A stretch of 64,000 bases of DNA from positions 62,001-126,000 of the forward strand of contig JAVTVY010039170.1 of the NCBI GenBank assembly GCA_036873755.1, given 5' to 3'. This DNA comes from Hanleya hanleyi. Lineage: Eukaryota; Mollusca; Polyplacophora; Lepidopleurida; Hanleyidae. Both the position numbers and the translations under genes were made by a program. Under the pieces are notes generated by a model. That model did no database searches. It was not told the origin of the DNA and was given only the letters and a program-made list of their open reading frames with translations. How positions within the stretch are numbered: position 1 is the stretch's first letter; every line of letters starts with the position of its first letter. Positions 6,318 through 64,000 of the stretch are shown here, one piece after another.

Positions 6318-8408
6318 TGTCTCGGGCCATACCGGAAGCCGAGACATAATGTTTCCAGTCCCGCCACAACTAGACCTTCCGGTAGGGGGAAGGCTGCAGT
6401 TGTTTTGGCGGAACTGGATAAGGATCGGGGCGGAAGCGTGGGTCATTCGAACTATCAGATACGGCTATCGCCTATCGTTCGACACGCTTCCCCCCTTGAC
6501 TGCATCTCCCCTTCCGTCTCGTATTCCATTACGAACGGGTCATCTATCAGCGATACAGTCCTCTGTGGACAAGCTGATAGAGAAGGCTTCAGTAATAGAG
6601 CTTCCGGTTTGGGATACAACACCCAGGTTCTATTCGCCGGTCTGAAAGACACGTCCGAGATGCGCATGGTTATCAACCTCAAGCGCCTCAACAAGGACTA
6701 CCTCACTCCACCGCCACACTTCCGCATGGAGTCCTTCCGGTCTATCCGGACGGTACTCAAGCAAGGGGAATGGCTGACTTCTCTGGATTTAAGGGATGCA
6801 TACCTTCATATCCCGATACATCCGGAGGACAGGAAGTACTTGAGATTCATGGTCGGCAAACGACGCTTCCAAATTCAAGTGCTCCCGTTCGGCCTGTCCA
6901 CTTCCCCTTGGGTGTTCACACGAGTGTTTACACCAGTGGCACAATTCCTGCACAGTCTAGGTATAAAGTACCACTTTTATATCGATGACTCCCTGCTAAG
7001 GAATGCCTGCAAAGAGCAGTTAATCCTAGACACGCAGTTTGTCTTAAGGACATTGACTTCTCTGGGATACATCCCATACGAAGAGAAGTCAGAACTGACT
7101 CCGTCGCAAAGGCGCAAATTTCTGGGGGTGGAATACGATACGCTTTTAGCTCTCGCCAAACCCCCAGAAGATCGTTGGCAAAAGATAACAACGAAGATAC
7201 CTCAAATCCTCAAGTTATCTCAAGCCAGGGCTTTACACTTTGCTGCGATAATCGGCCTCTTGACGTCTACACAGGATGTAACACCAAGAGGTCGGTTGCA
7301 GCTTCGTCCCTTAATGATTTACTTCAATCATCAATGGGTCGAAAGGCAGTTGAACCCGTGGATACCTGTCACGCCTCTTGTCAAACAATGCCTCCAATGG
7401 TGGTTGGATCCACTCAACGTTATGCCGGGTGTGTCCCTACTTCCGTTTCGTCCGTCACATCACCTGTTCACGGACGCATCTATGGAAGGATGGGGAGCCC
7501 ACTTCGAGTCCAGGTCGATATCCGGGTTATGGACAATCGAGGAACGCTCGTACCATATAAACGTGTTGGAGTTTATGGCAGTGACACATGCCATCCGCAC
7601 GTGGGTGAGCGTATTGACCGACAAGAACCTACTAGTTGCGACGGACAACACATCAGTCGTGTCCTACATCAACAAGCAGGGGGGCACGAGATCTCTGCAA
7701 TTACAAAGCCAAGCGGAAATCTTTTTCGGTCTGTGTTGGGACAACAACATATCAGTGTTGGCCAGGCACATCCCGGGAATTCTGAATGTCTTAGCGGATT
7801 CGCTTTCACGACGGAATCAGATAATTCCCACAGAGTGGCAACTTCACCCAGCCATACTAAAACAAATAGCTCATGTCTGGGAGATGCCACACATAGATCT
7901 GTTCACCACTCGGCACAACAATCTATTGCCCCTGTTCATGTCGCCGGTTCCGGATCCGTCGGCATATGCAGTGGACGCCCTATCGCAGGACTGGTCAAGG
8001 ATGGTAGCATATGCGTTCCCTCCTCCAGCTATCCTAGATCTAGCGAAGATCCACGAACACACTTGTGTCGTTTATCTGATTGTTCCGTGGTGGCCAGCAA
8101 GGCCGTGGTTCCCGGACTTACTGGATCTTCTGGTAGATGTACCAAGACAACTTCCGGTGTGGCACAATCTACTGCGCCAGCCCGGAACGTCGATATTCCA
8201 CAGCCAGCCAGGACTGTTCCACTACCACGTGTGCAAGTGCTCAAGAGACACTTCGCTCAGGCGGGATTTTCAACGGAAGTTGGGCGCCGAATGGCACAAT
8301 CGATTCGACCGTCCTGTTCCGCTGTTTACGATTCAAAGTGGGCAATCTTCGATCTTTGGTGTGGAGAGAGGGATATCAATCCATCAAGAGCCACTATCCC
8401 TGAAGTAG
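6262..8408 (+). pseudogene. DIRS reverse transcriptase - RNase H, frameshifted
   Basis: The N-terminal RT part is read in one frame up to the stop at 6643-6645 and continues in the next frame, so about one base has been gained or lost near 6635. Visible RT motifs: M-V-I-N-L-K-R-L-N, S-L-D-L-R-D-A-Y-L-H-I-P-I (first catalytic Asp), L-P-F-G-L-S-T-S-P, and Y-I-D-D at 6978-6989 (catalytic pair). RNase H follows with F-T-D-A-S, N-V-L-E-F, A-T-D-N-T and a final L-A-D-S, giving the D-E-D-D set. Beyond it lies the conserved DIRS region I-D-L-F-T-T-R-H-N plus W-P-A-R-P-W-F, which corresponds to the methyltransferase-like part of DIRS polyproteins; I see no clear catalytic methylase motif. The protein would copy element RNA into DNA. 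Confidence 0.9.
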
Positions 8409-9298
8409 CAGAGTTCTTATTGCACCTGTTCCGGGATAGGGGCCTTGTACCCGCTACGGTCGAAGGGTATAGGGCAGCCATTGCTCAACCTATTCTTCTG
8501 GGTACTGGGATTAATCCCTCGACTGATCCAAATTTATCTGCACTAGATAAATCATACAAATCATAAATCAAATCAAGTCATACAAGATATCTGGTCAGTC
8601 GGTTGTTCCGAAATTGCCAAAGTGGGACTTAGCCTAAGTACTTCGGCAATTAGGGAAGCCACCATTCGAGCCAATAGAGGCTATTGATCTCAAAATGTTA
8701 TCATACAAAACTTCGTTTTTTGTTGGCTCTTGCCTCGGCAGCTCATGTGTCAGAGCTGCATGCGCTTGATAGAAGGAACGTCAGACACTCTAGGGACTGG
8801 AGCAATGTAGTTCTCACAACAGTTCCTGAGTTTGTGGCTAAGAATCAAGCCCTCTACGATTCCATATCTCGAGAGTTCACAATTCCAGCCTTATCTGATT
8901 TCCTTTCGTCCGGTCTTGAATCAGACATGTTGATGTGTCCGGTTCGTGCACTCAGAGCAGAGGAGATCAGAGCGGGTAGGAGGCGTTTAGAAATAAGCAA
9001 AAATACTATCTCAAGTTGGCTCAAAAATACGATTCGGCTAGCGTACTCCACGGCTATGGATAGACAAGCCGCGCTTGTAAACGTTTTGGGTCACGAGATT
9101 AGGGCACTAGCGGCATCATGGCCTCTGTGGACTAACAGATCAGTGACTGACATTATGAGGGCATGCTACTGGAGGTCAAACACGACATTTGCCTCTTTCT
9201 ACCTCCGGGACATGACGTTAGCATGTGACGACCTCTATTCCATCGGCCCACTTGTGACCGTACAGCGGGTATCTGTGGGACCGAGGCCAGCAAGATAG
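8225..9298 (+). pseudogene. DIRS tyrosine recombinase, inactivated
   Basis: The frame overlaps the end of the RT ORF in a different reading frame, as in other DIRS elements. The N-terminal core-binding (SAM-like) part is at about 8260-8566 and contains a W-A-I-F-D-L-W-C helix and V-E-G-Y-R-A-A-I. The linking part carries a TAA near 8632 and needs a frame change near 8716 to reach the catalytic domain (8684-9298). There the His-x-x-Arg pair (H-E-I-R) and the C-terminal W and Tyr (F-A-S-F-Y-L-R-D) are present. The first catalytic Arg, expected in A-A-R-V-S-E-L, is His here (codon CAT, 8744-8746). The intact enzyme would integrate circular DNA without making a target duplication. Confidence 0.88.
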
Positions 9299-19453: not shown

Positions 19454-20378
19454 GGGCATAACTATATGTCCCCAAAGATGTTTCATAAGGCTATCGAGTG
19501 CATAGTAATATCATATAGGGAGCAAGCTCATTAAGTAATTGGTATGTAATGCTTATGTTGGTTCACACACTTTCATATCTCTGTATAAAGTATGTTAACT
19601 CAGTATATGATCTACCATTCGCAGGGATATCCATTCACGCAGCAACTATCTGCATTCACACTCTATCCATTCACACGACAGCCATTCACACAGCATTCAC
19701 GGCAGCCATTCACATGGTCAGCCATTCGCAATGAGCAATTCATTTCACTTGGCCAGTCATTCACGGTGAGCAATTCACAGGTATAAGCCATTCGGGCGAA
19801 AGCCATTAGGGCACACCCATTCACATGCCATTCAGGCGAAAGCCACTCGGGCACACTCATTCACATGCTATTCGGGCGAAAGCCATTCGAGCACACCCAT
19901 TCACATGCCATATGGGCGAAAGCCATTCGAGCACACCCATTCACATGCCATTCGGGCGAAAGCCATTCGGGCACACCCATTCACTTGGTGAGCATTCACG
20001 GGCGAAAGCCAATCGGGCACACCCATTCACATGGTGAGCCATTCACTGGCGTAAGCCAATCGGGCGCAAGCCAACATGGCTTACGCCAATCGGGCGTAAG
20101 CCAACATGGTTTATGCCAATCGGGCGAAAGCCACTCGGGCACATCCATTCACATGGTGAGCCACTCGGGCGAAAGCCACTCGGGCGAAAGCCACTCGGGC
20201 ACATCCATTCACATGGTGAGCCACTCGGGCGAAAGCCACTCGGGCGTAAGCCAACATGGCTTATGCCAATCAGGCGAAAGCCAATCGACACCAACTGGCA
20301 GCTTAGTCTGACCCATTTGTTGGCCAAATAAATATATTTATTAATCTATACCGGTGTTTCTGTGTTGTTTATAAATTG
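19454..20378 (+). repeat. Complex 0.93-kb repeat unit, copy 1
   Basis: The unit has a unique leader ('GGGCATAACTATATGTCCCC'), a 'CCATTCAC' region, a series of roughly 40-bp modules made of 'GGGCGAAAGCCA', 'TCGGGCACACCC' and 'ATTCACATG', and an AT-rich end 'AATAAATATATTTATTAATC'. Long frames on both strands (such as 19865-20311) follow the module period and do not look like real proteins. Confidence 0.9.
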
Positions 20379-20774: not shown

Positions 20775-21707
20775 GGGCATAACTATATGTCCCCAAAGAT
20801 GTTTCATAAGGCTATCGAGTGCATAGTAATATCATATAGGGAGCAAGCTCATTAAGTAATTGGTATGTAATGCTTATGTTGGTTCACACACTTTCATATC
20901 TCTGTATAAAGTATGTTAACTCAGTATATGATCTACCATTCGCAGGGATATACATTCACGCAGCAACTATCTGCATTCACACTCTATCCATTCACACGAC
21001 AGCCATTCACACAGCATTCACGGCAGCCATTCACATGGTCAGCCATTCGCAATGAGCAATTCATTTCACTTGGCCAGTCATTCACGGTGAGCAATTCACA
21101 GGTATAAGCCATTCGGGCGAAAGCCATTAGGGCACACCCATTCACATGCCATTCAGGCGAAAGCCACTCGGGCACACTCATTCACATGCTATTCGGGCGA
21201 AAGCCATTCGAGCACACCCATTCACATGCCATATGGGCGAAAGCCATTCGAGCACACCCATTCACATGCCATTCGGGCGAAAGCCATTCGGGCACACCCA
21301 TTCACTTGGTGAGCATTCACGGGCGAAAGCCAATCGGGCACACCCATTCACATGGTGAGCCATTCACTGGCGTAAGCCAATCGGGCGTAAGCCAACACGC
21401 CAACATGGCTTACGCCAATCGGGCGTAAGCCAACATGGTTTATGCCAATCGGGCGAAAGCCACTCGGGCACATCCATTCACATGGTGAGCCACTCGGGCG
21501 AAAGCCACTCGGGTGAAAGCCACTCGGGCACATCCATTCACATGGTGAGCCACTCGGGCGAAAGCCACTCGGGCGTAAGCCAACATGGCTTATGCCAATC
21601 AGGCGAAAGCCAATCGACACCAACTGGCAGCTTAGTCTGACCCATTTGTTGGCCAAATAAATATATTTATTAATCTATACCGGTGTTTCTGTGTTGTTTA
21701 TAAATTG
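20775..21707 (+). repeat. Complex 0.93-kb repeat unit, copy 2
   Basis: Nearly identical to 19454-20378 at an offset of 1321-1329 bp. The only clear differences are a few substitutions and an 8-bp insertion near 21392 ('GCCAACAC'). Confidence 0.92.
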
Positions 21708-28700: not shown

Positions 28701-31700
28701 TCGAAAAAAAAATAAAATAAAATAAAGGAAAGAACCCCCCACCTGCCTACCTACCCAACTTTTCTGAAGTTGGTTACTGGAAACACAAATATTATTGTGG
28801 ATGGCCTAACTGCATGGTTTCTTACATGATGGATATGATAATCCAGTCAAGGACATAACAAAATCATTTATTGGCTTCTAATGATGGGTGCAAAGTATTG
28901 TCTATATGTTATCGTGTGTTAGAGCTCTTGTATATCGGAAACATCTCCATATAAAGCCATTGATTTTCTCGCTAGACAGAAGTATATATTGATCATGCCT
29001 GGCATTATGCCAGCTATTTTATCAACTCAAACCACTCGGGTCTTCCTACTGACAGGCCTGGATGAAATTTCCACCTGTTAAAAAGCCTTTTCACACAAAT
29101 CGAATCACTGAAATGCTGGACGCCGTCTTAAATAAGATTTAGGCATATGAGAAAGACGGACAAATGGAACGAAGAATTCCCATTCTGCAGAGGTATTGAG
29201 CTCCACGGAAAATGTAACAGCGGTTACGCTAATATTCCTGCCACTGGGAAATTGACAGTGTACTTACAGTACAAGAACGAAGTCAACACAATACGTTGCT
29301 GACTTGATGTCAACATCGTGTTGACATGATTTTGACCAAGTTGGCACAATTTTCATCTGATGGCCACCTGATTTGTATAATTATTGGTTTGGGAAGTGTT
29401 TGGATTATTTCAGTGCCCCAGTCTGGTTTCAAATTGTCCCAGTCAGGGTTCAAGTAGCTTCAGTCAGGCTCCAGGTTGCCCCGGTCAGGTTTCAAGTTGT
29501 CACAGTCAGGGTTCAGGGTCCCTGTTGCCCAGGCAGTAGTCCGGGTCCAGGTTGCCCAGTTAGCAGTCAACCATGTTCAGGTTGTCACAGTTACGATCCA
29601 AGTTAGCCCAGTCTGAATCCAGGTTTGTCAGTCAAGGTCCAGGTTGCCCCATGCCTAGGGTTGCCACAGTCATGGACAAAATTTGAATAGTCACATGAAT
29701 AAATACTTCCTTTGTGAGTTGTCATGAAAAAGTCAGTAATTAAAATTGTTTCAGGAAGTGATAAAAAAGTCAGAAATTTCTCCCTCTAATCCTTCTCATG
29801 AAATGTTAGATGTAATCATATAAACAAGCGGTGCATTGAAATTTGTTTGGTAAATTTTCATGGGCCTTTGGCTGAAGAGATTCTCACCATTTTCTCTATT
29901 ACATGTACATGCATTTTATACAATGAAAGTTATGAAAAATGGTGGAATTTCGTCATGAAAAGTTGTGAAAATTTAGTTTCTACATGTTTTTACTGTGACT
30001 CCCTGTCACCCCAGTCAACATCCTATCAGGATCCAGGTTGCCCCAGGTTGATATATTGTCAAGCTTATTCATTGATTTCCAAGGGTGTATTCATCATTCG
30101 GAGAACTGAATGCAATTCGAAAAAGAAATTTGATTACTTTCAGAGCTGAAAGAATGTGTCACTTTGACAGCTTTGCCTTTTAGCTTTTCAGCTTCAGTTT
30201 GATAGCCGTATGAGCAAATCATTATGGATTTCCCAAGGAACAATCACATACAATTTGGGTTGCCTTAGCCAAATTTATATTGTCCATGGTAACAGGACAA
30301 CCTCAGATTTTAACCCTAGCAATAATTCTACTTGTTCAGGCATGGCTGTCATACTGGTACCTAAAAGTATGCACCTACACTTTTAATACTGTGCAAGAGA
30401 AGGGGAATTTTGACCTATATGTCGTGTAGATGAAATCGATAAAAATAAAATGTCCCAAAAATAATTCTGTGTTAATGTAACGGCAAGAGACAATATATGC
30501 GATATGTGAAAGTTCTAGATTGATTGCATATTGATTAAAGTTATCGTATGAAATTGAAATCTGTAGCATGTGCAGGGTTCCTGCGGTCATGGAAAATCCT
30601 GGAAAGTCGTGGAATTTGAAAATAGATTTTCCAGGCCTTGAAAGTCATGGAATTTTGTGTCTGGTCATTGAATTTTGTAAGAGATCATGGAAAAGTAAAT
30701 AGAACGTAAAAATGTCAATCAGGTCAATATTTCTCTTAATTTTTTTACTGAAAAGGTGACTTTCCTGAAATGTCGCATGTAGTCTACGAATTTGATCAAG
30801 GGTGCATCAGGGGAGGTAACTATGGTCTCAAACTCCCAGGGTGCATTTGGGAGGAAATGGGATTGTTCTCAAATCGCATCAGTGTGAAGTGAAATGCTAT
30901 GGAAATGCTATTCTCAGTCATCATGGCTGGGCAATGCAAATTATCGAAGATGGATCAAACGTGGTAAAATCCTGGCGAGGCCACATGATGTCAACTCATT
31001 TATATATGTAAAAATATTGGGGGATTGAGTGCCCAATGCCCCCATTATCCATAGATTATTTCTGATAGGTCATGGAAAGGTCAGGGAAAGTCATGGAATT
31101 CAATCTGAATTTCTGTGCATGTGCTATTTTCGTGAAAAAAAAGAAGGTTTAAATTGAGTCAATTCAAACGCAAAGTTTAGATATGATGGATCCCTCGGAC
31201 CAATATGCTATTCAACCTGGTGATTTTTGGTGGCATTATATCTGCACTGCTGGAAAATCTTTTTAATCCAAATCCTTCATGTCTAAATGTGTGTTTGAAT
31301 GACTCGATTCCGAAATAGCACATGATGCAATTTTCAATTTCATGTCTTAACTATAATCATAATGCAATCGAGCTAGAACTTTCACATCTTGTGTTCATAT
31401 ATATTCTCTTGCCACTATATTGAAACACAATCATTTTTAGGACATTTTATTTTTAGCCCACCATCACCAGATGGTGGGCTGTTCAAATCGCCTTTTGTCC
31501 GTGGTCCGTCGTCCGTCGTCCGTCCGTAAACAATTTCTTGTTATCGCGATTTCTCAGGAACTGCTGCATGGATCTTTCTCAAATTTGGTACACAGGTTCC
31601 CCTTGGGGTCTAGTTGTGCAAGAAACCTTTTTTGGTCCGATTCGAAAATCCAATATGGCCACCAGGCGGCCATCTTGGATTTCCCCATGAAAACTTGTTA

Positions 31701-34700
31701 TCGCGATTTCTCAGGAACTAATGCATGGATCTTTCTCAAATTTGGTACACAGGTTCCCCTTGGGGTCTAGTTGTGCAAGATACCTTTTCTGGTCCGATTC
31801 GAAAATCAAATGTGGCCACCAGGCACCCATCTTGGATTTCCCCATAAAACCTTGTTATTGTGATTTCTCAGCAAATAGTGCATGGATCTTTCTCAAATTT
31901 GGTACACAGGTTCCCCTTGGGGTCTAGTTGTGCAAGATACCTTTTCTGGTCCGATTCGAAAATCCAACATGGCCACCAGGCAGCCATCTTGGATTTCCCC
32001 ATGAAACCTTGTTATCGCGATTTCTCAGGAACTACTGCATGGATTTTTCTCAAATTTGGTACACAGGTTCCCCTTGGGGTCTAGTTGTGCAAGATACCTT
32101 TTCTGGTCCGATTCGAAAATCCAATATGGCCACCAGGCAGCCATCTTGGATTTCCCCCATGAAACCTTGTTATCGCGATTTCTCAGGAACTTCTGCATGG
32201 ATCTTTCTCAAATTTGGTACACAGGTTTCCCTTGGGGTCTAGTTGTGCAAGATAGCTTTTTTGGTTCAATTCGAAAATCCAATATGGCCACCAGGCAGCC
32301 ATCTTGGATTTTCCTTTGAAACCTTGTTATTGCAATTTCTCAGGAACTACTGCATGGATTTTTCTCAAATTTGGTACACAGGTTCCCCTTGGGGTCTAGT
32401 TGTGCAAGATACCTTTTCTGGTCCGATTCGAAAATCCAATATGGCCACCAGGCAGCCATCTTAGATTTCCCCATGAGACTTTGTTATCGTCATTTCTCAG
32501 GAAGTACTGTATGGATCTTTCTCAAATTTGGTACACAGGTTCCCCTTGGGGTCTAGTTTTGCAAGATACCTTTTTCGGTCCGAATCGAAAATCCAATATG
32601 GCCACAAGGCAGCCATCTTGAATTTCTCCATGAAACCTTGTTATCGCGATTTCTCAGGAACTACGGCATGGATCTTTCTAAAATTTGGTACACAGGTTCC
32701 CCTTGGGGTCTAGTTGTGCAAGATACCTTTTTTGATCCAATTCGAAAATCCAATATGGCCACCAGGCAGCCATCTTGGATTTCCCTTTGAAACCTTGTTA
32801 TTGCAATTTCTCAGGAACTACTGCATGGATCTTTCTCAAATTTGGTACACAGGTTCCCCTTGGGGTCTAGTTGTGCAAGATACCTTCTCTGATCCGATTC
32901 GAAAATCCAATATGGCCACCAGGCAGCCATCTTGGATTTCCCCATGAAACTTTGTTATCGTCATTTCTCAGGAAGTACTGTATGGATCTTTCTCAAATTT
33001 GGTACACAGGGTCCCTTGTGGTCTAGTTTTGCAAGATACCTTTTTCGGTCCGAATCGAAAATCCAATATGGCCACAAGGCAGCCATCTTGAATTTCTCCA
33101 TGAAACCTTGTTATCGCGATTTCTCAGGAACTACTCCATGGATCTTTCTAAAATTTGGTACACAGGTTCCCCTTGGGGTCTAGTTGTGCAAGATACCTTT
33201 TTCGGTCCGATTCGAAAAACCAATATGGCTACCAGGCACCCATATTGGATTTTCCCATGAAACCTTATCGCGATTTCTCAGGAACTACTGCATGGATCTT
33301 TCTCAAATTTGGTACACAGGTTCCCCTTGGGATCTAGTTGTGCAAGATACCTTTCCTGGTACGATTCGAAAATCCAGTATAACCACTAGGCAGCCATCTT
33401 GGATTTCCCCATGAAACTTTATCGTCATTTCTCAGGAACTACTGCATGGATCTTTCTCAATTTTGGTACACAGATTCCCCTTAGGGTCTCGATATGCAAG
33501 ATGCCTTTTTCGGTCCGAATCGAAAATCCAATATGGTCACCAGGCGGCCATCTTAGACTTCCCCATGAAATTTTTTTATCATGATTTCTCAGGAAGTACT
33601 GCCTGGATTTTTCTCAAATTTGATACACAGGTTCAATTGTGCAAGATTGTGCTTTTCTGGTCCGATTCGAAAATTCCATCTTGGATTTTTCCATGCAAAG
33701 CTTTTATCGTGATTTCTCAGGAAGTACTGCATGGATCTTTCTAAAATTTGGTACACAGGTTCCCCCTGGGGTCTAGTTGTGCAAGATACCGAATCGGTCC
33801 GAATCGAAAATCCAATATGGCCACAAGGCGGCCATCTTGAATTTTCCCTTGAAACATTGTTACCGTGAATTCTCAGGAAATATTTTGTGGATCTTTCTGA
33901 AATTTGGTACACAGGTCCCACATGGGGCCTAGTAGTGCAAGATGCCTTTTTTGGTCCGATTCGAAAATCCAAGTAACGCTTCAAATTAATTCGGTATTCT
34001 CGACTTGTGACGTTGCATCACAAGAGTCGGCGGATCAAATGGTGGGGCATATTCTATATATTGACTTTAGAGAATATCCATACCTTCACCTTCCATATCA
34101 AGGAGTTCAAATAATTCGGAATTAAAATGTATTTCTTCAAATTTTAAATCAGCTTTCTTTAGTCCATGCAGTAGCAAGTGAACTGCTCCACCCTTTCGTT
34201 TGCCGGTGGGTCGGCTACATGAAGGGACGTCACTCTTGTGACTCAACTCGACAACTGTAGACTACTGCATGTTTCGATCCAAGGGAGATAATCAGGATTT
34301 AGGCACTTTCGAAGTTTCAACATTACTGCGCAGGCCGGATCCCTTCAGTATTAAGTAGTGTACCATCTTACTATTTTCAGGCATGGTATCTTAAAAGAGA
34401 TATCTCAAAATAGCCGTATAAACAGAACAGAATTAGCACTCGTTCTTAATTATAAAATCTTAAGTATGTTTCATAGCTCATGCCAAAGCGTCAAAGAGAT
34501 TGGTCTTCGCTTCCAGTACCCAATGATGACACGTGCAAAAAAAATAAATCAAAAAAATACTACGAAACAAAGGCGAAGAATCCTCTGTACATGTACATTC
34601 ACTTTCAGACTAACTTTGCTCATTTCTCTTGTATTATAACAACCGACATATGTACAGTTTCTAGAAATCTTGAAACTTAGATTCTATCTTGGTGTTTTTC

Positions 34701-40700: not shown

Positions 40701-43700
40701 ACCATTGTACATGTAGAGGCTTAAGCCCGGCGCACACGAGAGCTATCAGCTGAGCTGACGGCCTCAATTGCCTGTCAGCTCAGGGGCTAGCTCTCGTATG
40801 CGGGCAGTTTTTGGTAAGTTTTTGGCCTCGCGAGGCCGGGGGAAAAATATCAAACTTGTTTGATAATTTCGCCTCGCGAGGCCAAATCCTCAGCGTGTGC
40901 GGCGAACGCAAGCCAACAGCTCAGCAGTTTTATTAGACCGGTCAATGAATCGCATGTTATTTTCACGTGATTCATACGCATGACTCTTCAAAATGGTCTT
41001 GAAGAAGACGTTATGCGGGAACTGAAATCAATTTCGTGAAACTTTTGCTCACCGTGTGCGCTGAAACCACACGAGAGCTAGCCAGGCAATTGAGGGCATT
41101 AGCTCAGCTGATATCTCTCGTGTGCGCCGGGCTTTACTTATTTTCCATATTTTTTTATTGTCTTCTTTCAGCTCGTGATGTGGTCAATGGTATAGCTTGG
41201 ACCACTGCTCTCGACAAACAGTTTGCAGAAAATGCTCAGAAAGATCCCACTTTAACATGGCAATATTTTGGCAGTTCCACAGGCTTCTTCAGGATATTTC
41301 CAGGTAACGTTATTGCCAAATTTTCTTAATGACCCATTTTATTCTACCTGGGCAGGAATTGCCATAATTCTTACATTTCTCAGGATTTGGCGAATCCATC
41401 TTGTGTGATCCTTCATTGAAACCCAATTCAATAAGAAGGTTTGTTATAGAAATAGACAATTACGTGTACGGTAATTCCCCTAATAGTTCGATCACCGGAA
41501 GTGCAGCAAAAATGGCTTATATCTGACAATATTCTTCATGGCACCAGCTACAAAGTGTCAAATTTTGTCATTAAATGACTTTTCTTCAATTTGACTGAAG
41601 AATGGGAATGTTACTTTTTCTCTTTGTTTGAATAACAGAGCTGAAAAGTGAACTTCCTGTGATTGAATTATTAGGGGAATTACCGTAATACTAGTGTAGG
41701 CTGATTTTTCGACTGAGTCCTATATGCTCACTTTGGCTAGACACTCTTTCGTTCTTTGGGCTTTTCTTCAGCCTTCTTCTGTGTTTCCTCGTATATTACA
41801 TAACCAATGATGTTACTCCATGCAATTGACTGACAAGTGGTGATTTTAAACCAATGGAATTGCATGAAATCAATTTATTTTGGCCAAATCTCCCCATGCC
41901 TAGTGTCCTTATTTAGTATGTGATTAGGTCATATAGAAGCTCCATATGTATAAGGCTTGTCACATAGCAGCCGGGTAATACTTAATAGTTATAGTTCATG
42001 TCCAAGGCTGGGTGTTCTTCATTCTTTGCCATCATTGTTGACAATGACTCCCTAGCCCATTGAGGAAGAAAAAACAATGGATGGTTACTAATGGTTACAC
42101 TTTCAAAATCTGCTCTGCCAATTATTCCTGCGCAATAAAATACTTCAAAGAATATTGATTTTGCAGAATAAGCATTTTGCACATTCTCCAATTAAACTCT
42201 GTCGTCCATCATTTTTTAAAAATATTCCTTGTTTTTAATAATATAAATTCATGTTGTCTTACATGATGGCATACACTAGGGGTTTTTTTCAGGGTGTTAA
42301 AATACTTAAAAAGGCATACCTCTAAATTGTCTGAAAACAAGGCCTAGAAATCTCAGATTTTGATCGAGTGATTTTACTTAATAATTTAACTCTGTAATTA
42401 TATTATAGATATGATATTAATTGTAAATATCTGTAATACTATAGGTATGATATCAGTTATAACTGTCTGTAATACTATAGGTATGATATCAATTATAACT
42501 GTCTGTAATACTACAGGTATGATATCAATTATAACTGTCTGTAATACTATAGGTATGATATCAATTATAACTGTCTGTAATACTATAGGTATGATATCAA
42601 TTATAACTGTCTGTAATACTATAGGTATGATATCAATTATAACTCTGTAATACTATAGGTATGATATCAATTATAACTGTCTGTAATACTATAGGTATGA
42701 TATCAATTATAACTGTGTAATATTATAGGTATGATATCAGTTAACTCTGTCTGTAATACTATAGGTATGATATCAATTATAACTGTCTGTAATACCATAT
42801 GATATCAGTTAACTCTGTCTGTAATACTATAGGTATGATATCAATTATAACTGTCTGTAATACTATAGGTATGATATCAGTTAACTCTGTCTGTAATATA
42901 CTATAGGTATGATATCAGTTAACTCTGTCTGTAATACTATAGGTATGATATCAGTTAACTCTGTCTGTAATACTATAGGTATGATATCACAGTCCTTGTC
43001 TTTTGTAAAAAGATGGTGAGCTAAAAAAAGTGTACCTAAATTAACCGAGGAGAGCTAATACGAGAGCTGAAAATCGCTCACCCAAATTTCGTGAGGGGAG
43101 TGATTTTGTTTTAATTGTTTAACCTACCATATTATATTTTTGATTAAATTATTTTATTTTTCAATTTATTTTCAAACGAAAAATTTATGAAAATAAATTA
43201 TTCTATTTCAATTTAAACAAGTCAATATCAAAAGTGATGAAGATTTCAACAGTCACCAGTGGGTAGTACGTACCAAAAGATTGAGCAAGCTCACTCTGCA
43301 TATAATACTCGTCGGAACCAATCATGCGCGAAGAGCAGTGTCTGTGGAGGTTCTCGAAAATAATCGGCCGATAGTATTTAAGTGAACGAGAAGAATGGTT
43401 GGCGAATGATCAGACGAGTCCCAGTTCAATATTGCCCAAGAGTATTGACATCCTACTGACTACAGGCTCTGTGTGCTGATAATGATGTGTAAATCATCTA
43501 CCTTTCTTAGAAAACTTCGTCAACTGCTTCAACTTGTTCAAGGAAGATTTGCTGCAGTTACCGCCATTGTTTTCAGCTCTCCGCGCACGTGGCAAATATT
43601 GCACGATTCCATGCTAGGAATAGCCTGTGCAAGAGACTGCCGATTGTCAAACAAGCGAAGAAATTATGGCCGCGCTGGAATTGACGGCGATCGTTTGCTG

Positions 43701-46700
43701 ATTAAAATTTATTGAAGGCATTTCAGTTTATTCTCACAGTGATTTTCAGTGTGGAAGAGTTCGCAAAATTAACACCAACTGTCCGTACATTTAATAATAA
43801 GGCCGTTAGCAGATACAGCCTACTTATTTCTATATTTAATCTGCTGAATCTAGGTGCGCGAAAAACAGTGTACCTTGGATATGATTTAGGTGAGCGATGG
43901 TGCGCGAGAGCGATCGCTCACCTCCAAACGCAAGGACTGATATCAATTATAACTGTCTGTAATACTATACATGTAGGTATGATATCAATTATAACTGTCT
44001 GTAATACTATAGGTATGATATCAATAATAACTGTCTGTAATACTATAGGTATGATATCAATTATAACTGTCTGTAATACTATAGGTATGATATCAATAAT
44101 AACTGTCTGTAATACTATAGGTATGATATCAGTTAACTCTGTCTGTAATACTATAGGTATGATATGGCCCAGAGGACCCAATGTGGCTGTGGATATGTTT
44201 GATTGCAGAGTCAGAGGATGGTGAGTAACTTTTTTTTCCAGTTTAATGTCGAGCATAAATCTAAGTGTTATCATTTAGATCTTCGAGAAATGTCCGTGTT
44301 ATCGTTTAGATTTTCCAGAAATCTAAGTGTTATCATTTAGATCTTCCAGAAATCTAAGTCTTATTGTTTAGATTTTCCAGAAATCTAAGTGTTATCATTT
44401 AGATCTTCCAGAAATCTAAGTCTTATTGTTTAGATCTTCCAGAAATCCAAGTGTTATCATTAAGATCTCCCAGAACAGTTTGAGAATGAGATTGAATGCA
44501 TTTAACTTCATTTTTTTCATGACCATAGAAATAGCATATTCCCTCAGTTTATAACCTCCTAAACTCTCCGTGTAACTCTCTCTGCAGCTGACTGCTTCGG
44601 GCTGAAGAATACAGCATGCATGCACAATCGGACTTGATACATTGTGATTGACACAGGAAGGATTTATCTGCATACAAGAGAAATAAACCAGTATCATTAG
44701 AAGAAAAAACAAATATGCTCCACTATTTAAGAATTACACGCATAGCAACATCCTGTTAGCTGTAATATTCTGAGCCCACTCTGCTTCATTTGCAAACGGG
44801 AAATGTTGATTGGCCGAGAGCCATGTGCGCACTACTTATGTGGCACATTTTAATCCCAGTGCAATCGGAGAGTACATATGACAGTAGGAGGAGTACAAGC
44901 TGATGCCATTAGAATGGGAAATAGTTAGTCCAATATTGTGGTTTAATATGCTGCCTTGCATCGTGTCCACTTAAATTGGATATGGAATAGAGTACGAGAC
45001 GACAGCATCTCCCTGTAAATTAATGACTGATATGAGTGTTGGTTGTACACTGATGCGAGAGAGATGGGTAATTACCCGTATACGTCGAGTTATCAGTCCT
45101 AATTTGTCTTCAGTAATGGATATTCACACTTACATAATCATTTTTACTTAAAAGCTTCCTGGAATGCATTAAGCGGTGGAAAACAAAATTTACCGCTAAA
45201 AGGTTGAACACCTACACAACTACATGTAGAAATGATATGGGTTTAGAAAAGTATAGCTGATGAAGTAGTAGTGGTCAGGGAGCTTCAAAAATTAGGGTAT
45301 GAGTTCCTTGATAGGAATGAAATATGCTGCTTATCCAATGGAACACACCATGCCCAAGTAGTGTTCTATCTAGCATGAAGAAAAATTCCAATTGGAATGG
45401 CATGCCAGTCCCTATGTCAGGGAGTTCCAACTCGGTGCATTTTCTAGTATGCCCCAATTTCAAGGAGCTCCCTGCTCTACTATCATGGCAGATGGTCTTG
45501 GACAATTTCCATGCTTGTATTTTGTTGGTTGCCTAGCCACGTTGGTATCAAAGGAAATACTGAAGCTGATGAAATGACGGACAATGTATTCCATGCCACG
45601 AAGATCTCACAGTGAAATATATTCTGATCGACTGTATAGATTTTTGTAAGAGATTATTTTTATCAAGCAGCTACTTTAGAAGATCTTTTTAGTCGGGTAA
45701 AAGAAGACTGTAAAAAAATAGGTCATTTGAAAGAAATCGGTTTGTGGCAAACAGCATTAAGTTTTAATGTATGTGCATGTATTTTGGTGTGTTTAGTGGA
45801 TTATTCTTCTGAATTGTTGGGTTGTTGACTCATTTTTGTTAGAATACTTTAGAATTTTGTTTAATCAGCGCTATATAGCTGAAATATTACTGAACATGAC
45901 ATTAAACCTTAATTCTCTCTCTCTCTTTCTCCATGCTCAATTGCTTTTTCAAATAATTCAAACATAGGAAATACAAATTAATCTGTAACCAGGGTGAGTT
46001 CTCTAGTAATTCAATTATAGGAAGTACCGGTACAAAATAATCTCTACCTACAGACTGAGTTCTCTAATAGAATTTGTTCCCCGACACCCGAAGGACTACA
46101 GTATTGGGGTTGGTCCGTGTGTCTGTGCATCCGTCCGTGCGTCCGTCTGACTTCGTTTCAGGACAATAACTTCTGAAGAACTGAACAGATTCTTTTCAAA
46201 TTTGGTATGTGGGTACCTGGCCTCAAGATCTCGCATGGGATTGTTTTTTACGCTCGTCCGCCTACAGGTGGCACCATCTGGGGGCCAATTTAAAATTTCT
46301 TTTCCGGAAAATAACTTTTGATAAACTGAACGGATTTTCTTCAAATTTGGTATGTGGGAACCTTGACTCAAGATCTCGCTTGGGATTGTTTTTCATGCCG
46401 ATCCACCTATAGGTGGCACCACCTGGGGGCCAAGTTCAAGAGATCATCAAAAAGGAAAGGTTGTGAATCAGAAAAAACTATACCCATTTCTAAGCTGTCC
46501 TATAGAAATGTGGACTTGATGAATCTCTGGTACACTGGTGCACACTAACAAATAAGTGAAAAGTGGAGCGAAGGCCTGCAGACTGACAATTAGGTTTGTG
46601 TTCTAAACAAAAGACTTGTGTATCAATACATGTTGTTTCTATACCCATCGGCAACATAATTACAACTTTTTCTGCGCCAATGGCGTTAGAAAAACACTTG

Positions 46701-49700
46701 AGGGATTTTCACTAGATAAGCTGCTTAACGTGAGAAGATCACAGATTTCTGAAACCTTAACAATGTTTTAGCAGATTAGAAACAGAGATTAAACTCGGAT
46801 AGGGTTTCAGGGCTGTATAGACAGATTTCTGATTTCTCTACCAGCGTGATGTGGAATTGCACATTTTTTGCTGAAGAAATATTACGCTGTCAATGGCGAA
46901 TTTGAGTTTATTTCTTTAAGAATTTAGTGTGAAACACTATGACGCAGATGTCTACAAAGAAAGCAATAAGATTGCACGCATGTATATGAACATTGCAAGA
47001 ATGTGCCAGTTTACATCTGCAAGTTCTCTCCCCTGATTTTGCTCCTATAAGGATTGGAAAAACTCTATCCGTCTCCTTGATGTGGGATGCATGTGGCACA
47101 TGTACTTCATATACATACCAATGAACTATATATCGCTGTCACACCTCACTCTGTCTAATTTGACCTCACAGTTGCCGTGGTTATATCAGTTGGTGAGGTA
47201 TACATATGTCCACCCAATCACATTTATAAAGGCATAGGTCTGTCACTGAAAATTATGCCAACATTGCTTCAACATTGGATGGATTTCTATGGGGCTCACT
47301 TTTTCTTGTTCTGTACAGTACTTGTAGGAACATCCACTCAAATTATATTGCAAAATTAATTTCTTTGCAGGTACATTCAGGCTGCTACATTTCCCAAAGA
47401 TATGGTCATACTTCTAGACACCAGCGGGAGCATGCATGGCTTACGTATGTCCATAGCCCGGAAAACTGTGGACGAAATCCTCGACACTCTCAGCGATAAC
47501 GATTTTTTCAACATCATTCTTGTAAGAATGCATCTTGTCTATTGTGAGGAAGAAGTTTGGGTGTCATAGGTGCATGAACAACCTCTGTTCACATAGAAAA
47601 ATTTGGTGTCAAATTTGATCAATCTTTGCATTATACTCAGCCAAAAAATAATCTGAAAACATGTGTACTATTACATCAGCTTTCTGTTATTGTCTGTTCC
47701 AATGGTTGATATTCAAATAAGAATCTATTGTTCAGACCTTTATATTAGTGAACCACCCGTCTACACTCATTCTTGTATCCAGAAACTCTTTCTTCTCTTT
47801 TGTTTTGTGACCCTTTAATACATGCAAGATGGAACATTCCAATGGCGACTGTCCGGGCTTTGAAGATTTCCCTCTTGATACAATGATAAATATTATGCCC
47901 AAACTATGATGTGCCCAAATTAGAGAACAAAAAAAAACTATTTAGAGAACTATAAAAACTATGTCATATATGAGTCGAAACTTACCTATTTTGTCAGAAA
48001 TTCATGAACTTCAGATTTTCACTAATTTGGGCACATTTCCCTGCCAAAAAACATTTTGACGTACCGAATAGAGGATGTGCCCAAATTAGGGTAATTTGAT
48101 ACCCTTACTCACACATTTTCTATCGGACACACGCAGTTAACCTTCAGTGTGGTCTCATCATAATGCTCCTGTTCTGTATTCGCCATTCCTAGATAGACGA
48201 GTTTGAATGCAGTTCTGCACACATCCGCATTTAGAACAAGGTCAATGCTGTTGTCACCATGGCATTCATGGAAATTCACGTAATTCAGGAACGTCATGGA
48301 GAACTCTGCAATGTGAGGGTGCTCTGTGACATTGTGACGGCGCCAATTATGATGTTGAAAAGTGACTCTTTAGAACCGCACATTCGTTCTCAAAATGAGG
48401 TCAAAGCTCCCTGACATCCATTTTCGAACTCGCCAAAGAAAGGATATGGCATATGGCTTGTCATACAATAGTCCAGAGAGAATGACAGGGAACTGCTATC
48501 GGTGTTGATCAGAACACTACACTGGGCATAGTGTATCTCATTTGGATAACTGGCATATTCCATTCCTTTCAAGGAACTCATGCTCTAATTACAAGAAGCT
48601 CACTTATCAAGTCCATCATCAATCAGTAACTGAACAGTACCAAATGGTCACCTATCAGTAACTGAACAGTACCAAATGGTGACCTATCAGTAATCACACA
48701 GTTTATTGATGGTAACCAATCAGTAACTGACCAGTAGTCTTCAAGGTAGAACAATACTGCAATTAAAGTTAAGACCGTGCAGGCTACCAATTGGTCGTCG
48801 ATCAGTTTCTGGTTAGTAACTAGAAAAAACCTGTCATTTACTGCCACAGGATAATTGTTCGGTACATGTTAACTGCACAATACTGTTCAGTCGGGACTTC
48901 ATGGTGCCAAGCTTAAAGATGTAATCAGCCTCAAAATCTAGATTGCCATCAAGTTTTCTGAAACTCTGTGAGAGTGACATATGTTACAACAGATACAGAA
49001 TGAAGTACATTTGACCACATTAATCTCAACTTGTGGCTAGGGTTCATGAGAAAATGGGAGGAAATGATCATCAAAAATGAATGTCATGGCATGCCATTTA
49101 TTTTTTCAATGGCTACTGTGTGGCTTGGTTGTCAACATTGCAACGTCACAGTTGAAAGTGGGCATCATCACTCACTGCTTGTTGGATGATGTCATAAAGT
49201 AGAGTGTCATCAAAGTGGACTAAAATTTTCAACTTTCTCTGACTGATATTCTTGCTTACACTGTATATATTGACCTTGCTGTTATTGAAATAAAAAAAAA
49301 ACTATGCTGCCTCAGATGCTTCGATGCTGAAAACAGTGTAGTTGAGAGTTGAAAATTTTCTCCAATCTTGATACTGATTACATTTTTATCATTTCTGTGC
49401 TGTACCAAGAGGTTATCATTTCTGTGCTGTACCAAGAGGTTATCATTTCTGTGCTGTACCAAGAGGTTATCATTTCTGTGCTGTAGCAAGAGGTTGCCAA
49501 CAGGAAACTGAGCAGTACTTAGTGGTGCAGATCGATGAAAGTATACCTTTCTTATGAGAGAATTTATGGTAGCTGAATTCACTTTCACTTTCTGTTTCCA
49601 GTTTAATAAGACCCCATCATATTTGGATGACTGTCTCAATAGGACATTGGTCCAAGCTAATGCAGACAACCGGAGACGTCTTGGAGAGGCCATTGCTAGC

Positions 49701-52700: not shown

Positions 52701-55700
52701 GTGGAGCCTTTTCACAGAAACAGCTATTGGAGCCATTCCATAGAAACAGCTAGGTGGCCATATCCATAAAAACAGCTAGTGGAGCCATTCCATAGAAACA
52801 TGTTGTGCAGCCATTCCATAGAAACAGCTAGTGGAGCCATTCCATAGAATCATGTTGTGCAGCCATTCCATAGAAACAGCTAGGTGGCCATATCCATAAA
52901 AACAGCTAGTGGAGCCATTCCATAGAAACATGTTGTGCAGCCATTCCATAGAAACAGCTAGTGGAGCCATTCCATAGAAACAGCTAGGTGGAGCCATTCC
53001 ACAGAAACATGTTGTGCAGCCATTCCATAGAAACAGCTAGTGGAGCCATTCCATAGAAACAGCTAGGTGGAGCCATTCCATAGAAACAGCTAGTGGAGCC
53101 ATTCGATAGAAACAGCTTAGCTAGTGGCGCCATTCCATACAAACAGTCAGTTGAGCTATTCCATAGAATCGGCTAGCAGCCCACACAACTCAGAAAAGTT
53201 ACCCCGGCAAAAATAATGTCATATTAAAATAATTCCTATTTAACACCATGTTAAATATTGCTGAGGTGAACTGATTATGCCACGGCATTTACCTCAGCAA
53301 TTGCCGATTGCTGAGGTGAATTGTGTGGGCTGGGCTAGAGCCATTTCTGTTGTTGCCAAAGAAACAATGGAACTATTTCTTTGTTGCCATCGAGCAGTTG
53401 GACAGTTCTTCTGTTGCCACATAGAGAGGGGCCATATTTCTTTGTTGCCATGGACAAATGTTGATGGATGTTCAGACAATTTTAGAATTTCTTGATAATA
53501 ATAACTTTATTGCAGATATTCATACTTGTACTGCAGAAAAAAAAGAAGAAGAAAAACGTTGTTATGACACAATTTCACATCTCGCATCACATCAAACTCG
53601 GCATGAATAGTGAACTGTTCACCCTATTACGATTGGCAAGGCAGCAAATGAACTGACAACAGTATTGTCACAGCACAGGGCTTTATTTCTTTAACTGTTT
53701 ATAGACTTCTTCCATATTTTGTGAAAGGACATTATTGTTTTTTACGAAGATTTGAGAGGCACTATTACGGCTTGTAAGACCCAACAACCATCTAAAGACA
53801 TTGTTATAACATACATGTACAGTGATTCTTGCACATTGTAGACTGGACAAAAGTACTCCCAAGTTCAGAGCAGTAGAGATTTTCAGCATCATGTCTTAAA
53901 AATATGGCATTGGATTTCCACAGAACAACTGAAAAATCTACAAAGGAGAAAATTAACTCTGATACAGAGAGAGATCTAGAGAGAGAGAGAGAGAATTAAG
54001 GTTTAACGCCGCAGAGCTTAATTGTCAGTGATACATAAATGAATTGAATACATTTGACAGTGCTCATTTCGAGAAATACTTTCTACACTTTTGTAAAGTT
54101 CCTGAACAGGTCAGAGAGAACCAACCTCTCTAAAATGGAGGTAAAAAAGGTCATTTTTGTCCAATAAATTCAAGAATATATTGAATGAAGAGACATCTGT
54201 CCTAGGTGACCATGGACATATATATCCGCATTGGATGATAATGAAAAATCAAATTGTCATCTTTGTAATTTGCATAAGAATAGACATGATCCGTTCTCTA
54301 TTAACAATTAGATTATGCACACTTTCATTGGAAAAAGACAGTTACGTCAAAAGTTATGAAAGCAAAAACGTCCTTTTTTAACTCCATTTTAAAGAGGTAG
54401 TTCTCTGTAATGTACTGAAAGACTTGCATGAAATAGCATGATCTGTGTTGATACTTTACAGGCTACCATACCCATATCTCAACAATGGCAGATGTTCAGG
54501 AAAACGTACAGGTTAGTGCACAATTCAATTGCTATATATATATAATTTTTTTTAGCTCATCCGGGCCGAAGGCCCGATGGGCTAATGTCATGGCGTGATT
54601 GTCCGTCGTGCGTCGTCAGTCGTCCGTCGTGCGTAAACATCTTATTCTCTGAAACCACTTGGCCAATTAAGCTGAAACTTGGCATGCATGTTCCCCCTAA
54701 TGAGTACACCAGAATTTGTTCATGCGGTGTCGATATGATTTTAAATATGGCGGCCATCTTGGATTTCCCCATGAAACTTTGTTATCGCGATTTCTCAGGA
54801 ACTACTGCATGGATCTTTCTCAAATTTGGTACACAGGTTCCCCTTGGGGTCTAGTTGTGCAAGATACCTTTTGTGGTTCGATTCAAAAATCCAATATGGC
54901 CACCAGGCGGCCATCTTGGATTTCCCCATGAAACTTTGTTATCGCGATTTCTCAGGAACTAATGCATGGATCTTTCTCAAATTTGGTACACAGGTTCCCC
55001 TTGGGGTCTAGTTGTGCAAGATATCTTTTGTGGTCCGATTCTAAAATCTTGGATTTCCCGTGGAAACATTGTTATCGCGATTTCTCAGGAACTACTGCAT
55101 GGATCTTTCTCAAATTTGGTACACAGCTTCCCCTTGGGGTCTAGTTGTGCAATATACCTTTTCTGCTTCGATTCGAAAATCCAATATGGCCACCAGGCGG
55201 CCATCTTGGATTTCCCCATGAAACTTTGTTATCGCGATTTCTCAGGAACTACTGCATGGATCTTTCTCAAATTTGGTGCACCGATTTCCCTTGGGGTCTA
55301 GTTTGCAAGATACCTTTTGTGATCTGATCCGAAAATCCAATATGGCTACCAGGCAGCCATCGTGGATTTCCCTGTGAAACTTTATCATGATTTCTCCGGA
55401 ACTACTGGACGGCTCTTTCTCAAATTTGGTACACCGATTTCCCTTGGGGTCTAGTTTGCAAGATACCTTTTGTGATCTGATCCGAAAATCCAATATGGCC
55501 ACCAGGCAGCCATCTTGGATTTCCCCATGAAACTTTATCCCGATTTCTCAGGAACTACTGCATTGATCTTTCTCAAATTTGATACACAGGTTCCCCTTGG
55601 GGTCTAGTTGTGCAAGATACCTTTTCTGGTCCGATTCGAAAACCCGATCTTGAATTTCCCCATGAAATTTTGTTATCATGAATTCTCAGGAAATTACTGC

Positions 55701-58700
55701 ATGCATGGATCTTTGTCAAATTGTGTACACAGCTTCCCCTTGTGATCCAGTTGTGCAAGATACCTTTTTTGGTCCATTTCAAAAATCCAATATGGCCGAT
55801 CTTGAATTTCACATGAAACTTTGTTATCATGAAATCTCAGGAAATTACTGCATGGATCATTTAGTGTTCAGGGGAGACAACACAAGTTAGAAACTCATCT
55901 ATTGCAGTTCTTTAGTAAAAATTTCTTACAGCTACTTTCTCCAGTTACAGCCAGATGAGCTACAGTGCCGTGGCACTATCTTTTTTAGCAAATTTAAGCT
56001 GCTACAGCAATCCTGTACATTTGATTTTCAGGTGAACAGATGTGAATCTTCTTTCAACAAACATATGGTTCATGAGGCACAGATTGTATTCATACTTGTG
56101 GGTACTAAAGTCATTTATACAAAAATAATGCACTCTGGTACCATGTTGGTTGGTGCCAAGTGATATGTTGTTTTAAGGGATGTGAAACTCCTGTAGAATG
56201 ATTTATACGAATTGTGCTGGTTTTATACAGAGGTATGTACAAGTACTGAGTGGGCCGATGGCTCGATCGCGTAGACGGAAACGGTCCGTTCATACCATCT
56301 GGACTAGTTTGTATGAGGATGCAGGGGTAAGAGTTAATCTTGGTTTAACCATCCCCTCTAGTGCTTGTACAGGCCATCGTTTTTAGTTGTAGTAAGTAAT
56401 TTTCACCAACTTATTAGTTATGCCTACCAGCAACTCCCCGGCTTTATAAGCAAGCTGCTTCTTGTTTCAATATGTTGTAGGACAATATGCTATCAACCCT
56501 TTTAGTGATCTTGTATTATTTTTCTTTCCCATTGAAGTTGATGTGTAAGCCGGCATCAAGGATGTTTATCAGATTCAACATAAGTGTAAATAATCCAAAT
56601 AATTTGAAAATCCCTCACACCCAGTTTGTCGATCCTGATAAAATTTTTAAAACTTTTTGCTAACTGTTTTCAATTCAAGATTATCACCCAAAATTATTCT
56701 CACCAAAGCTTTGGTTCAGTTATCTTCAAGACCATTTGATTTCAATTAAAAGATTCTATTCTTTTGAATAAATTTAATTTATCCAGTGCCAGTGTACATT
56801 GCAGCTAGTATTAACTGGGTTGAACTGGGATGTTTTTGTGCACACAGTAAAAATAGATCAGACACTTCTTGTAAGAGGTGACTAACTGGGGCACCCTTAG
56901 AATTTCTGAGTGTGAAAAGGAATAGGACCATTGGGGTCCTGGGTGTTAAATGAAATAGCTATTGGTTTTCCGGGTGTGAAAAGTAATAGGACCCTACCTT
57001 AAACTGGGGTGGATTCGGGCGGTTTTTGAGGGTTTTTTTTTATGTAGGACTTTCATTTTTCATAAAAAATTGACCATATGTAGCAAAACTGTTAAATGAG
57101 ATATAGAAAATAAGACATGCAATTTTCATCCATATCAGAGTATTATTAATTGTGTTAATTTCGTCCAAAGATTGTCATCTCACTGGATGGAGGGAAATTC
57201 CTTCTGCGGGGTATATTCGGACACATAGGCACTACTTAAAACACTTTAGAAAATATGTGATCCGTTTTACTAGATTCTGAGCCAAAGGGAGTGGTCAGGG
57301 ACGGGCCAGAAAGGTGGGACAAAAATGAACCAAAGGGAGATAAATCTTGACTTGCCAAAATATTATTTTTTGCCCTGTGAACTTACAATTGTTGAATAAT
57401 TCCATTTTAAAACCTCTTAAAAAGACTGGCACCAACAATTCCGAGGCTGCAAAGCTCATCACTGATTGAAAATATTCCCCAAACTGTAGACCTAGTAAAG
57501 AGAGGAAAGGTATGAACCACAAATTTAAACTGGGAGCCACATGTCAATGCACCCATTGGTGCACTGGGGCAAACTTTGTTTTAGAATTAAATTGAGAAAG
57601 ATCCATTAATCTTAGCCTGTGTGACTTCCATTCAGTGTTAATATTAATTACTCCACTGCTTTGTGCCTGCATGTTACCTCTGCTTGATCGTTGCTTTGCA
57701 GAAATATATCAAAGTGCTGAGCAGACCTACACTTAAGGAGGCAGATAGAAATGTCGCTTGGAGCCCTGTTTATCTCGACTACCTCCAGTCTTTGGAGGAC
57801 GCCGCAAAGGTGCGTTATTCACCGAATCTGTTGGGAGAATTTTTTTTTTTTTCAAATTTAATAAATTTGACCCAGTAGTAAAATGAGAACAAGCTTATAA
57901 AAAAAGGAATCCATTATTATATGTCGATTATACAATGGCCTGTCCAATTCCTGTCTCCTCAACTTTCTCTGCCTGCATATGCCCAAAGAACTCTAAATCT
58001 CAAATGAAATATATGGACATGATCCGTGGGAAAATACAATGGATCTTCACCAAAACTCTATGATTGGCTGGATTCCAAATTTCTCCTCAACCAATGAAAA
58101 TGCCAGATTTCATTTTGAAAATTTGAATTAGCCAATCAACTATTTAAAACCTGGAAGTTACCCCTTAGTGAATCAAATTTTCTTAAAAATACACAGAAGC
58201 AATTATTATGGTTTATCAAAGGAGCACATAGTCATAACACATTTTGTTCCTTAATTTGCATGCACAGTACTTTTTTACATTTTGTTCTATTAATTGCACA
58301 GCTGGAGAAGATGACTGCTAAGGAGGTAATCAAAGTTGATCAAAATTGTGTTGTTTCATTTGATTGATTATCTGTTTTGTTTATTGTGTTGTTTGATTTG
58401 ATTGGTTTATCTGATTTGTTTATTGTGGTTCAATTTGCTAAGGCCAGTGGTTCTCTTTCCCATTGCTTCACTGTTGGACACTGTATGTCCCTGGGTTAAG
58501 ACTCGTGCCATCAATAAGTGCATATTCAGTGCCATACCAAAAAATGTTTTGCTATAGTGACCATTGCTTATTTATGGGCATTAGATATAAAATGGCATAA
58601 ACTAAGGTGATTTTCATGGCACTGACAGTAGCAAATGAATCAAAAGAAGTACATTTTTACCCAGAATGTCAGCGTGTGATCAGATATATTAAATGGAATT

Positions 58701-63242: not shown

Positions 63243-64000
63243 ATACCACTGAGAATTGTCTTGTGAATTGATACCATTGCAGTCTTGTGAATTGATAATA
63301 CCACTGCAGTCATGTGACTTGATAATACCACTGCAGTCTTGTGAATTGATAATACCACTGCAGTTTTGTCAATTGATACCACTGCAGTCTTGTCAATTGA
63401 TAATACCACTGCAGTCTTGTCAATTAATAATACCGCTGTAGTCTTGTTAATTGATAATACCACTGCAGTCTTGTCAACTGATAATACCACTAGTCTTGTC
63501 AATTGATAATACCAGTGCAGTCTTGTCAATTGATAATACCACTGCAGTCTTGTCAATTAATAATACCACTGCAGTCTTGTCAATTGATAATACCACTGCA
63601 GTCTTGTCAATTAATAATACCGCTGTAGTCTTGTCAATCGATAATACCACTGCAGTCTTGCCAATTGATAATGCTACTGCAGTATACTGCAGTCTTGTCA
63701 ATTAATAATACCACTGTAGTCTTGCCAATTGATAATAACACTGTAGTCTTGCCAATTGATAATACTACTGCAGTCTTGTCAAATGATAATACTATGCAGT
63801 CTTGTCAATTAATAATACCACTGCAGTTTGTCAATTGATAATTCCACTGCAGTCTTGTCCATTGATAATACTAATGCACTTTTGTCAATAATACCACTGC
63901 AGTCTTGTCAACTGATAATACCACTGCAGTCTTGTGAATAATACCACTGCGGTCTTGTGACTAATACCACTGTAGTCTTGTGAATAATACCACCGCAGTC
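63243..64000 (+). repeat. 27-bp minisatellite running off the window end
   Basis: At least 28 units of the 27-bp type 'TTGTCAATTGATAATACCAC' + 'TGCAGTC', with later units shortened to about 20 bp near 63930-64000. It lies in the intron after exon Q. Open frames on both strands are an effect of a unit divisible by three. Confidence 0.96.

Follow-up and report, generated by a model that had tools for sequence, protein, structure and literature searches.

A minisatellite that repeats the 3' splice site of the adjacent exon in an alpha2-delta-like calcium-channel gene

How is an exon joined correctly when its acceptor is the last of 21 exact copies of the same splice junction? The question is raised by one exon, here called exon E, of a calcium-channel alpha2-delta subunit gene in a 64,000-nucleotide stretch of DNA (the window: 62001-126000 on a contig of 173,165 bases, of which 171,165 were read, from a genome of 2.48 Gb). 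The 2853-nt intron between exon E and the preceding exon D ends in a minisatellite with a 36-bp unit, the core of which consists of the acceptor of exon E together with its first 9 coding bases. We favor the view that this is a "mirage"-type minisatellite at the 3' end of the D-E intron, that the acceptor of exon E is its last unit, and that exon D is mostly spliced to 44157. The probability of this reading is put at roughly 0.74.

The exon E acceptor as a repeat unit

Tandem Repeats Finder (TRF) placed the minisatellite at 42386-42989 and 43938-44165. Its unit is GTATGATATCAATTATAACTGTCTGTAATACTATAG, with a variant form that carries CAGTTAACTCTGTCTG; the second array extends 9 nt into exon E, so that the tandem repeat spans the exon-intron border. 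The junction AG|GTATGATAT is present in 21 exact copies, the last of which is exon E's own, and array units share variants among themselves. The window contains 21 occurrences of a 17-mer from the core, TACTATAGGTATGATAT, at up to three mismatches (0.29 expected; none of 100 shuffles reached 21), and 18 of these are exact, all inside the array. In the 2.48 Gb genome, one other exact copy was found, a single match on another contig (L001), with no array around it within the 3,017 bases read. The acceptor of exon E has 19 copies within 10 kb (at most five mismatches in 24), while the same test found no nearby copy for the other 39 of the 40 borders of the modelled exons. These include exon E's own donor, which is not part of the repeat. 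The claim of the initial annotation that an intronic minisatellite repeats this splice site is therefore borne out, as is the exact 36-nt spacing that it gave for six intron ends (43976, 44012, 44048, 44084, 44120 and 44156). The acceptor sequence TACTATAG that it assigned to them does not apply to 43976, which reads CATGTAG. Its further 16 or so upstream units correspond to the left block of Table 1, where we count 15 exact junctions plus degenerate units, with periods of 34, 36, 38 and 68 and with a stop in the path of all 15.

Exon D matched alpha2-delta-1 chains of determined structure at a best E value of 2.1e-8 (phmmer), and when it was joined to exon E the alignment to alpha2-delta-1 ran across the junction (E 0.001). 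Further exons were located by local tblastn using human alpha2-delta sequences, with borders picked by homology and GT/AG rather than from RNA, in a model that is incomplete beyond 67323. Sixteen joined exons, exon E among them, form an open frame without a stop, and four further pieces placed downstream bring the model to 20 exons. The homology of exons D-F and a conserved PGxxW before the VWA domain support the assignment to a conserved, neuronal alpha2-delta-3/4-like subunit, in agreement with the gene first proposed. One detail changes: 41304, given earlier as the donor of exon D, is where the donor GT starts, and the exon itself ends at 41303. Exon E is needed in the gene, because skipping its 64 nt would shift the frame.

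Homologue counts here and below refer to the 120 best of 1559 homologues. Among these, the top matches to the partly joined protein of the contig come from annelids (two proteins) and molluscs (two proteins). A 14-row tree places it with Solemya and Haliotis (support 99/95) inside a spiralian clade and apart from Branchiostoma. By identity (59% over 457 columns) and by path length, however, it is closest to the annelid Capitella, in an alignment where the window row occupies 46% of columns. The gene is thus spiralian, perhaps from a mollusc or a near relative.

Table 1. Features of the D-E intron and its surroundings (window coordinates).
Feature	Position	Strand	Details
Exon D	41172..41303	+	ends in phase 1; donor CAG|GTAACG at 41304; phmmer, open joined frame
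36-bp minisatellite, left block	42386..42989	+	15 exact AG|GTATGATAT junctions and degenerate units; periods 34/36/38/68
Direct repeat ATATCA, left copy	42984..42989	+	6 bp, flanks inserted element
Inserted element	42990..43939	.	950 bp; short terminal inverted repeats CAGTCCTTG...CAAGGACTG; splits array
36-bp minisatellite, right block	43940..44165	+	acceptor ends 43976, 44012, 44048, 44084, 44120 (decoys) and 44156 (exon E)
Direct repeat ATATCA, right copy	43940..43945	+	6 bp, flanks inserted element
Putative branch site TTAAC	44133..44137	+	its A lies 20 nt before the intron end
Exon E	44157..44220	+	64 nt; first 9 nt GTATGATAT common to every junction; donor ATG|GTGAGT
31-bp minisatellite, separate	44257..44475	+	starts 36 nt after exon E; donor not included
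Exon F	47371..47521	+	VWA domain start; completes codon opened in E (TG|G)

Direction of growth and the inserted element

The initial annotation left open whether the array had grown out of the splice site or the splice site had been taken from the array. The bases common to the unit and the exon, G|GT ATG ATA T, encode G-M-I and the first base of W, that is, part of the PGxxW motif kept in 120/120 homologues. From its P up to the next conserved block, every one of these homologues has 11-17 residues (115 of them have 13), and the window protein has 14. Because the shared 9 bases are conserved coding sequence and exon E begins at its usual conserved position, the array most likely copied coding sequence from exon E and grew out of the junction, a direction that these bases strongly suggest and that we hold with fair confidence. 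Recruitment of the acceptor from a pre-existing intronic array, with exon E formerly starting elsewhere, would account for an exon that is contiguous with the array and has an atypical acceptor, and the two residues between PG and W do differ among homologues, so overwriting would have been possible. However, exon E starts at the conserved PG|xxW with its spacing kept, and an independent array would hardly be expected to hold those coding bases, which makes this origin very improbable.

The history that we favor thus has three steps: the 3' end of the intron and the first 9 coding bases of exon E would have been duplicated in tandem, expanded to about 22 units, and later split by a transposon-like insertion. 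An inserted element interrupting the array had been noted before, and its inverted ends and ATATCA flanks agree with that description. Its longest open stretch is 88 codons (over 42990-43937), and no second copy was found in the contig stretch at E 1e-3. Because the element sits within the array, the array is the older of the two. Tandem arrays are hard to assemble, and the locus could in principle be an assembly artefact or a dead gene copy. Such an explanation has very little to recommend it, given that 16 exons join open and that the array consists of units with shared variants, split by an element bearing direct flanking repeats.

Choice among the acceptors

Splice-site strength was scored with acceptor and donor matrices built from only the 20 modelled sites, used donors being scored leave-one-out. 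Several of the results weigh against a preference for 44157. The acceptor of exon E, at 0.77, is the lowest of the 20, and at least 30 of the 137 AGs in the intron score above it. Four left-block junctions (42765, 42833, 42943 and 42979) match exon E's over 35 to 54 bases upstream and 9 downstream, and the candidate branch motif TTAAC is also present in 5/15 left-block units; local sequence therefore fails to single out 44156. Use of decoy acceptors is plausible, since exon E has the weakest acceptor of the 20 and the four left-block decoys match it over at least 35 bases upstream. Ten AGs outside the array, along with 42409 in a degenerate edge unit, outrank every exact array copy.

Beyond the copies, frame and exon homology described above, we infer the choice of acceptor and its manner from what lies around exon E. 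Most transcripts probably keep exon D joined to 44157, given the strong downstream donor of exon E and a good branch site in the last unit. The donor scores 9.70, the fourth of 20, as compared to 6.67 for the donor that is rebuilt when exon D is joined to an array copy, 4.72 for array units and 1.58, the lowest of 20, for exon D; exon definition through the exon E donor is for this reason the likeliest cause of correct splicing, with re-splicing a possible one. A branch motif matching YTNAY had no match in the scanned stretch of the right-block decoys 44013, 44049, 44085 and 44121, and 43977 has one at -40. The motif is a weak predictor, being found at 16/20 modelled acceptors and at 45% of 3857 control AGs, and this together with the left-block TTAAC copies led us to reject it as decisive. 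Nothing unusual emerged in the predicted RNA structure of the right block together with exon E (z 0.18).

What would decoy use produce? All five upstream acceptors of the right block are in frame and open, adding 12, 24, 36, 48 or 60 residues as first proposed. The unit peptide was likewise correctly described as lacking a stop, with the correction that the unit next to exon E encodes a slightly different 12-residue period. Each unit retained would add one cysteine. On the other hand, all 15 left-block junctions run into a stop when the sequence up to exon E is retained. Right-block copies may be used at a low rate to give in-frame proteins longer by multiples of 12 residues, while left-block copies, if used, would lead to decay-prone RNA or to re-splicing; a left-block unit could also enter as a 36-nt cassette exon, from its acceptor to the next GTATGA. 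A stronger proposal is that the acceptors at 44121, 44085, 44049, 44013 and 43977 form a functional ladder that inserts 12-60 residues between VWA_N and VWA, with array length setting the range of isoforms. The frame, the exact spacing and the weak acceptor of exon E, which makes competition plausible, all fit such a ladder. However, about 15% of shuffled cases would be expected to give an in-frame open 36-nt unit (0.46 open x 1/3), so openness is no sign of selection, and we rejected it as evidence of such. In addition, an insertion of 12 or more residues at the array position is seen in 0/120 homologues, each unit brings an extra cysteine, the YTNAY motif is missing in four of the five decoys, and the stops of the left block make it unusable in this way. 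A functional ladder is therefore doubtful. The related suggestion of the initial annotation, that protein length or splicing efficiency could be tuned through array length, is unsupported on account of the chance frame, the uninterrupted homologues, the left-block stops and the undisturbed splicing reported for amphioxus mirages (see below).

Mis-splicing might also be erased, in principle, because in each unit the acceptor is directly followed by a donor-like GTATGA. Joining exon D to any upstream copy would rebuild CAG|GTATGA, and re-splicing from there to a later copy would yield the same D-E mRNA. The rebuilt junction CAGGTATGA scores 6.67 as a donor, a value reached by 2.2% of the gene's GTs and higher than 6/20 used donors, including exon D's own (full matrix for the rebuilt site, leave-one-out for the used ones); the array unit TAG|GTATGA, at 4.72, is equalled by 7.3%. 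The consensus donor is GTAAGT, from which GTATGA differs at two positions. Introns have a minimum length, and only the last step, the 36 nt from 44121, would fall below it and resist removal, leaving the +12 form as the commonest leftover. Excerpts of the literature describe acceptor-donor pairs as defining recursive splicing (PMC8605326) and report that sites rebuilt at junctions are re-spliced if the exon junction complex is absent (PMC8184009). The same excerpts of PMC8184009 indicate that the complex normally blocks such sites. Furthermore, the AG|GT pairing follows from an exon that starts with GT and does not require selection, and exon E should be kept, because the rebuilt donor is weaker than its own. 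Self-erasing recursive splicing is in our estimation unlikely. That the roughly 20 acceptor-donor units act as a self-correcting splice buffer, leaving mainly a +12-residue isoform in proportions that differ from one individual to another according to array length, is a speculative extension with low odds.

Other repeats and known parallels

The contig is rich in tandem repeats, with 85 merged arrays covering 36,437 of the 171,165 bases (~21%). In this gene, four exon borders lie within 40 nt of an array against 0.96 expected (P 0.013) and six within 110 nt against 2.6 (P 0.045), an enrichment that is only a hint because the distances were chosen after the data were seen and the gene is incompletely modelled past 67323. 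A 27-bp minisatellite of about 150 copies starts at window position 63271, reaches the window's end (64000) and continues in the contig to 67232 on the window scale. It takes up most of the intron that precedes the exon at 67252 and ends 19 nt before that exon's acceptor, which is not copied; its unit length is again divisible by three, and the unit holds CTGCAG. Beyond the window, a 22-bp minisatellite (99632-99724 on the same scale) starts 16 nt downstream of the exon whose last base is 99615, the donor of which is not copied. Elsewhere in the window, one satellite-like family, its period close to 157 bp, is present at two places (31537-33972 and 54749-55858). Two closely similar blocks of 15/30/40/60-bp repeats (19674-20287 and 20995-21616) lie some 1.3 kb from each other, as would be expected had a larger unit been duplicated, and a 525-codon open stretch lies on the + strand (6989-8563).

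The closest parallels, taken from excerpts of the papers cited in this section, are the amphioxus mirages. These minisatellites lie at exon-intron borders of Adh3, the globin genes BflGb6 and BflGb9, TnC and PGBD5, and many of their units carry AG/GT (PMC3087553, PMC3902484; the latter added PGBD5 and cites Adh and TnC). Adh3 units are cited as 10-72 bp (PMC3087553, PMC3902484). Splicing is reported as undisturbed: it is described as normal for the Adh, globin and TnC genes, and for PGBD5 the authors infer the same (PMC3087553, PMC3902484), with Adh3 data and globin reverse-transcription PCR suggesting regular splicing (PMC3087553). BflGb6 occurs in two haplotypes with 6 and 3 copies (PMC3087553). 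The present array has a comparable unit size, spans an exon-intron border (1/40 modelled borders), carries AG/GT in its units, among them the 21 AG|GTATGATAT junctions, and like that of BflGb6 copies an intron 3' end together with the start of the exon. It differs in belonging to a spiralian gene, placed in the tree with two molluscs, in having about 22 units and a transposon-like split, and in an open 36-nt unit that gives an in-frame ladder.

Other systems share single features. In the human ABCA7 intron 18 variable number tandem repeat (VNTR), a 25-bp unit includes the exon 18 donor, and use of a cryptic donor has been observed to leave one unit retained (PMC5954066). There, too, an intronic minisatellite unit holds the real splice site of the adjacent exon, but that site is a donor and retention shifts the frame, whereas here a 36-bp unit holds an acceptor and keeps it. 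The array was not classed as a donor VNTR of this type, the donor of exon E having 0 copies. Tandem duplication of AGGT in the Rogers model of intron gain, with ATP2A1 and a 24-bp fission yeast case as examples (PMC4974935), likewise yields copies each with AG|GT, two of which could serve as donor and acceptor; it creates a new intron, while here the end of an existing one is extended. Recursive splicing through ratchet points and RS-exons (PMC8605326) shares an acceptor directly followed by donor-like sequence, in our case the GTATGA that starts exon E, but here there are many tandem copies, a 2853-nt intron and a rebuilt donor weaker than that of exon E. NAGNAG acceptors also compete in frame just upstream of an exon (PMC3250501, PMC2951375); their spacing is 3 nt, unlike the 36 nt, whole signal sets and other origin found here, and the array was not assigned to them. 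The miR-137 VNTR was set aside as a parallel, its splice sites belonging, in the part of the source consulted, to the pre-miR-137 sequence.

Judged by its sequence, the array is of a known though little-known kind, found here outside cephalochordates and with a frame-keeping unit. Because the gene is spiralian, mirages would not be limited to cephalochordates. The finding extends splice-junction minisatellites beyond cephalochordates and ABCA7 to a conserved neuronal spiralian gene, the literature look-up not having been aimed at mollusc or annelid cases. Its near-identical, evenly spaced 3' splice sites offer a natural test of how an acceptor is chosen, whether by first AG, exon definition, branch site or re-splicing, and the array bears on the origin of introns or exon extensions through tandem duplication.

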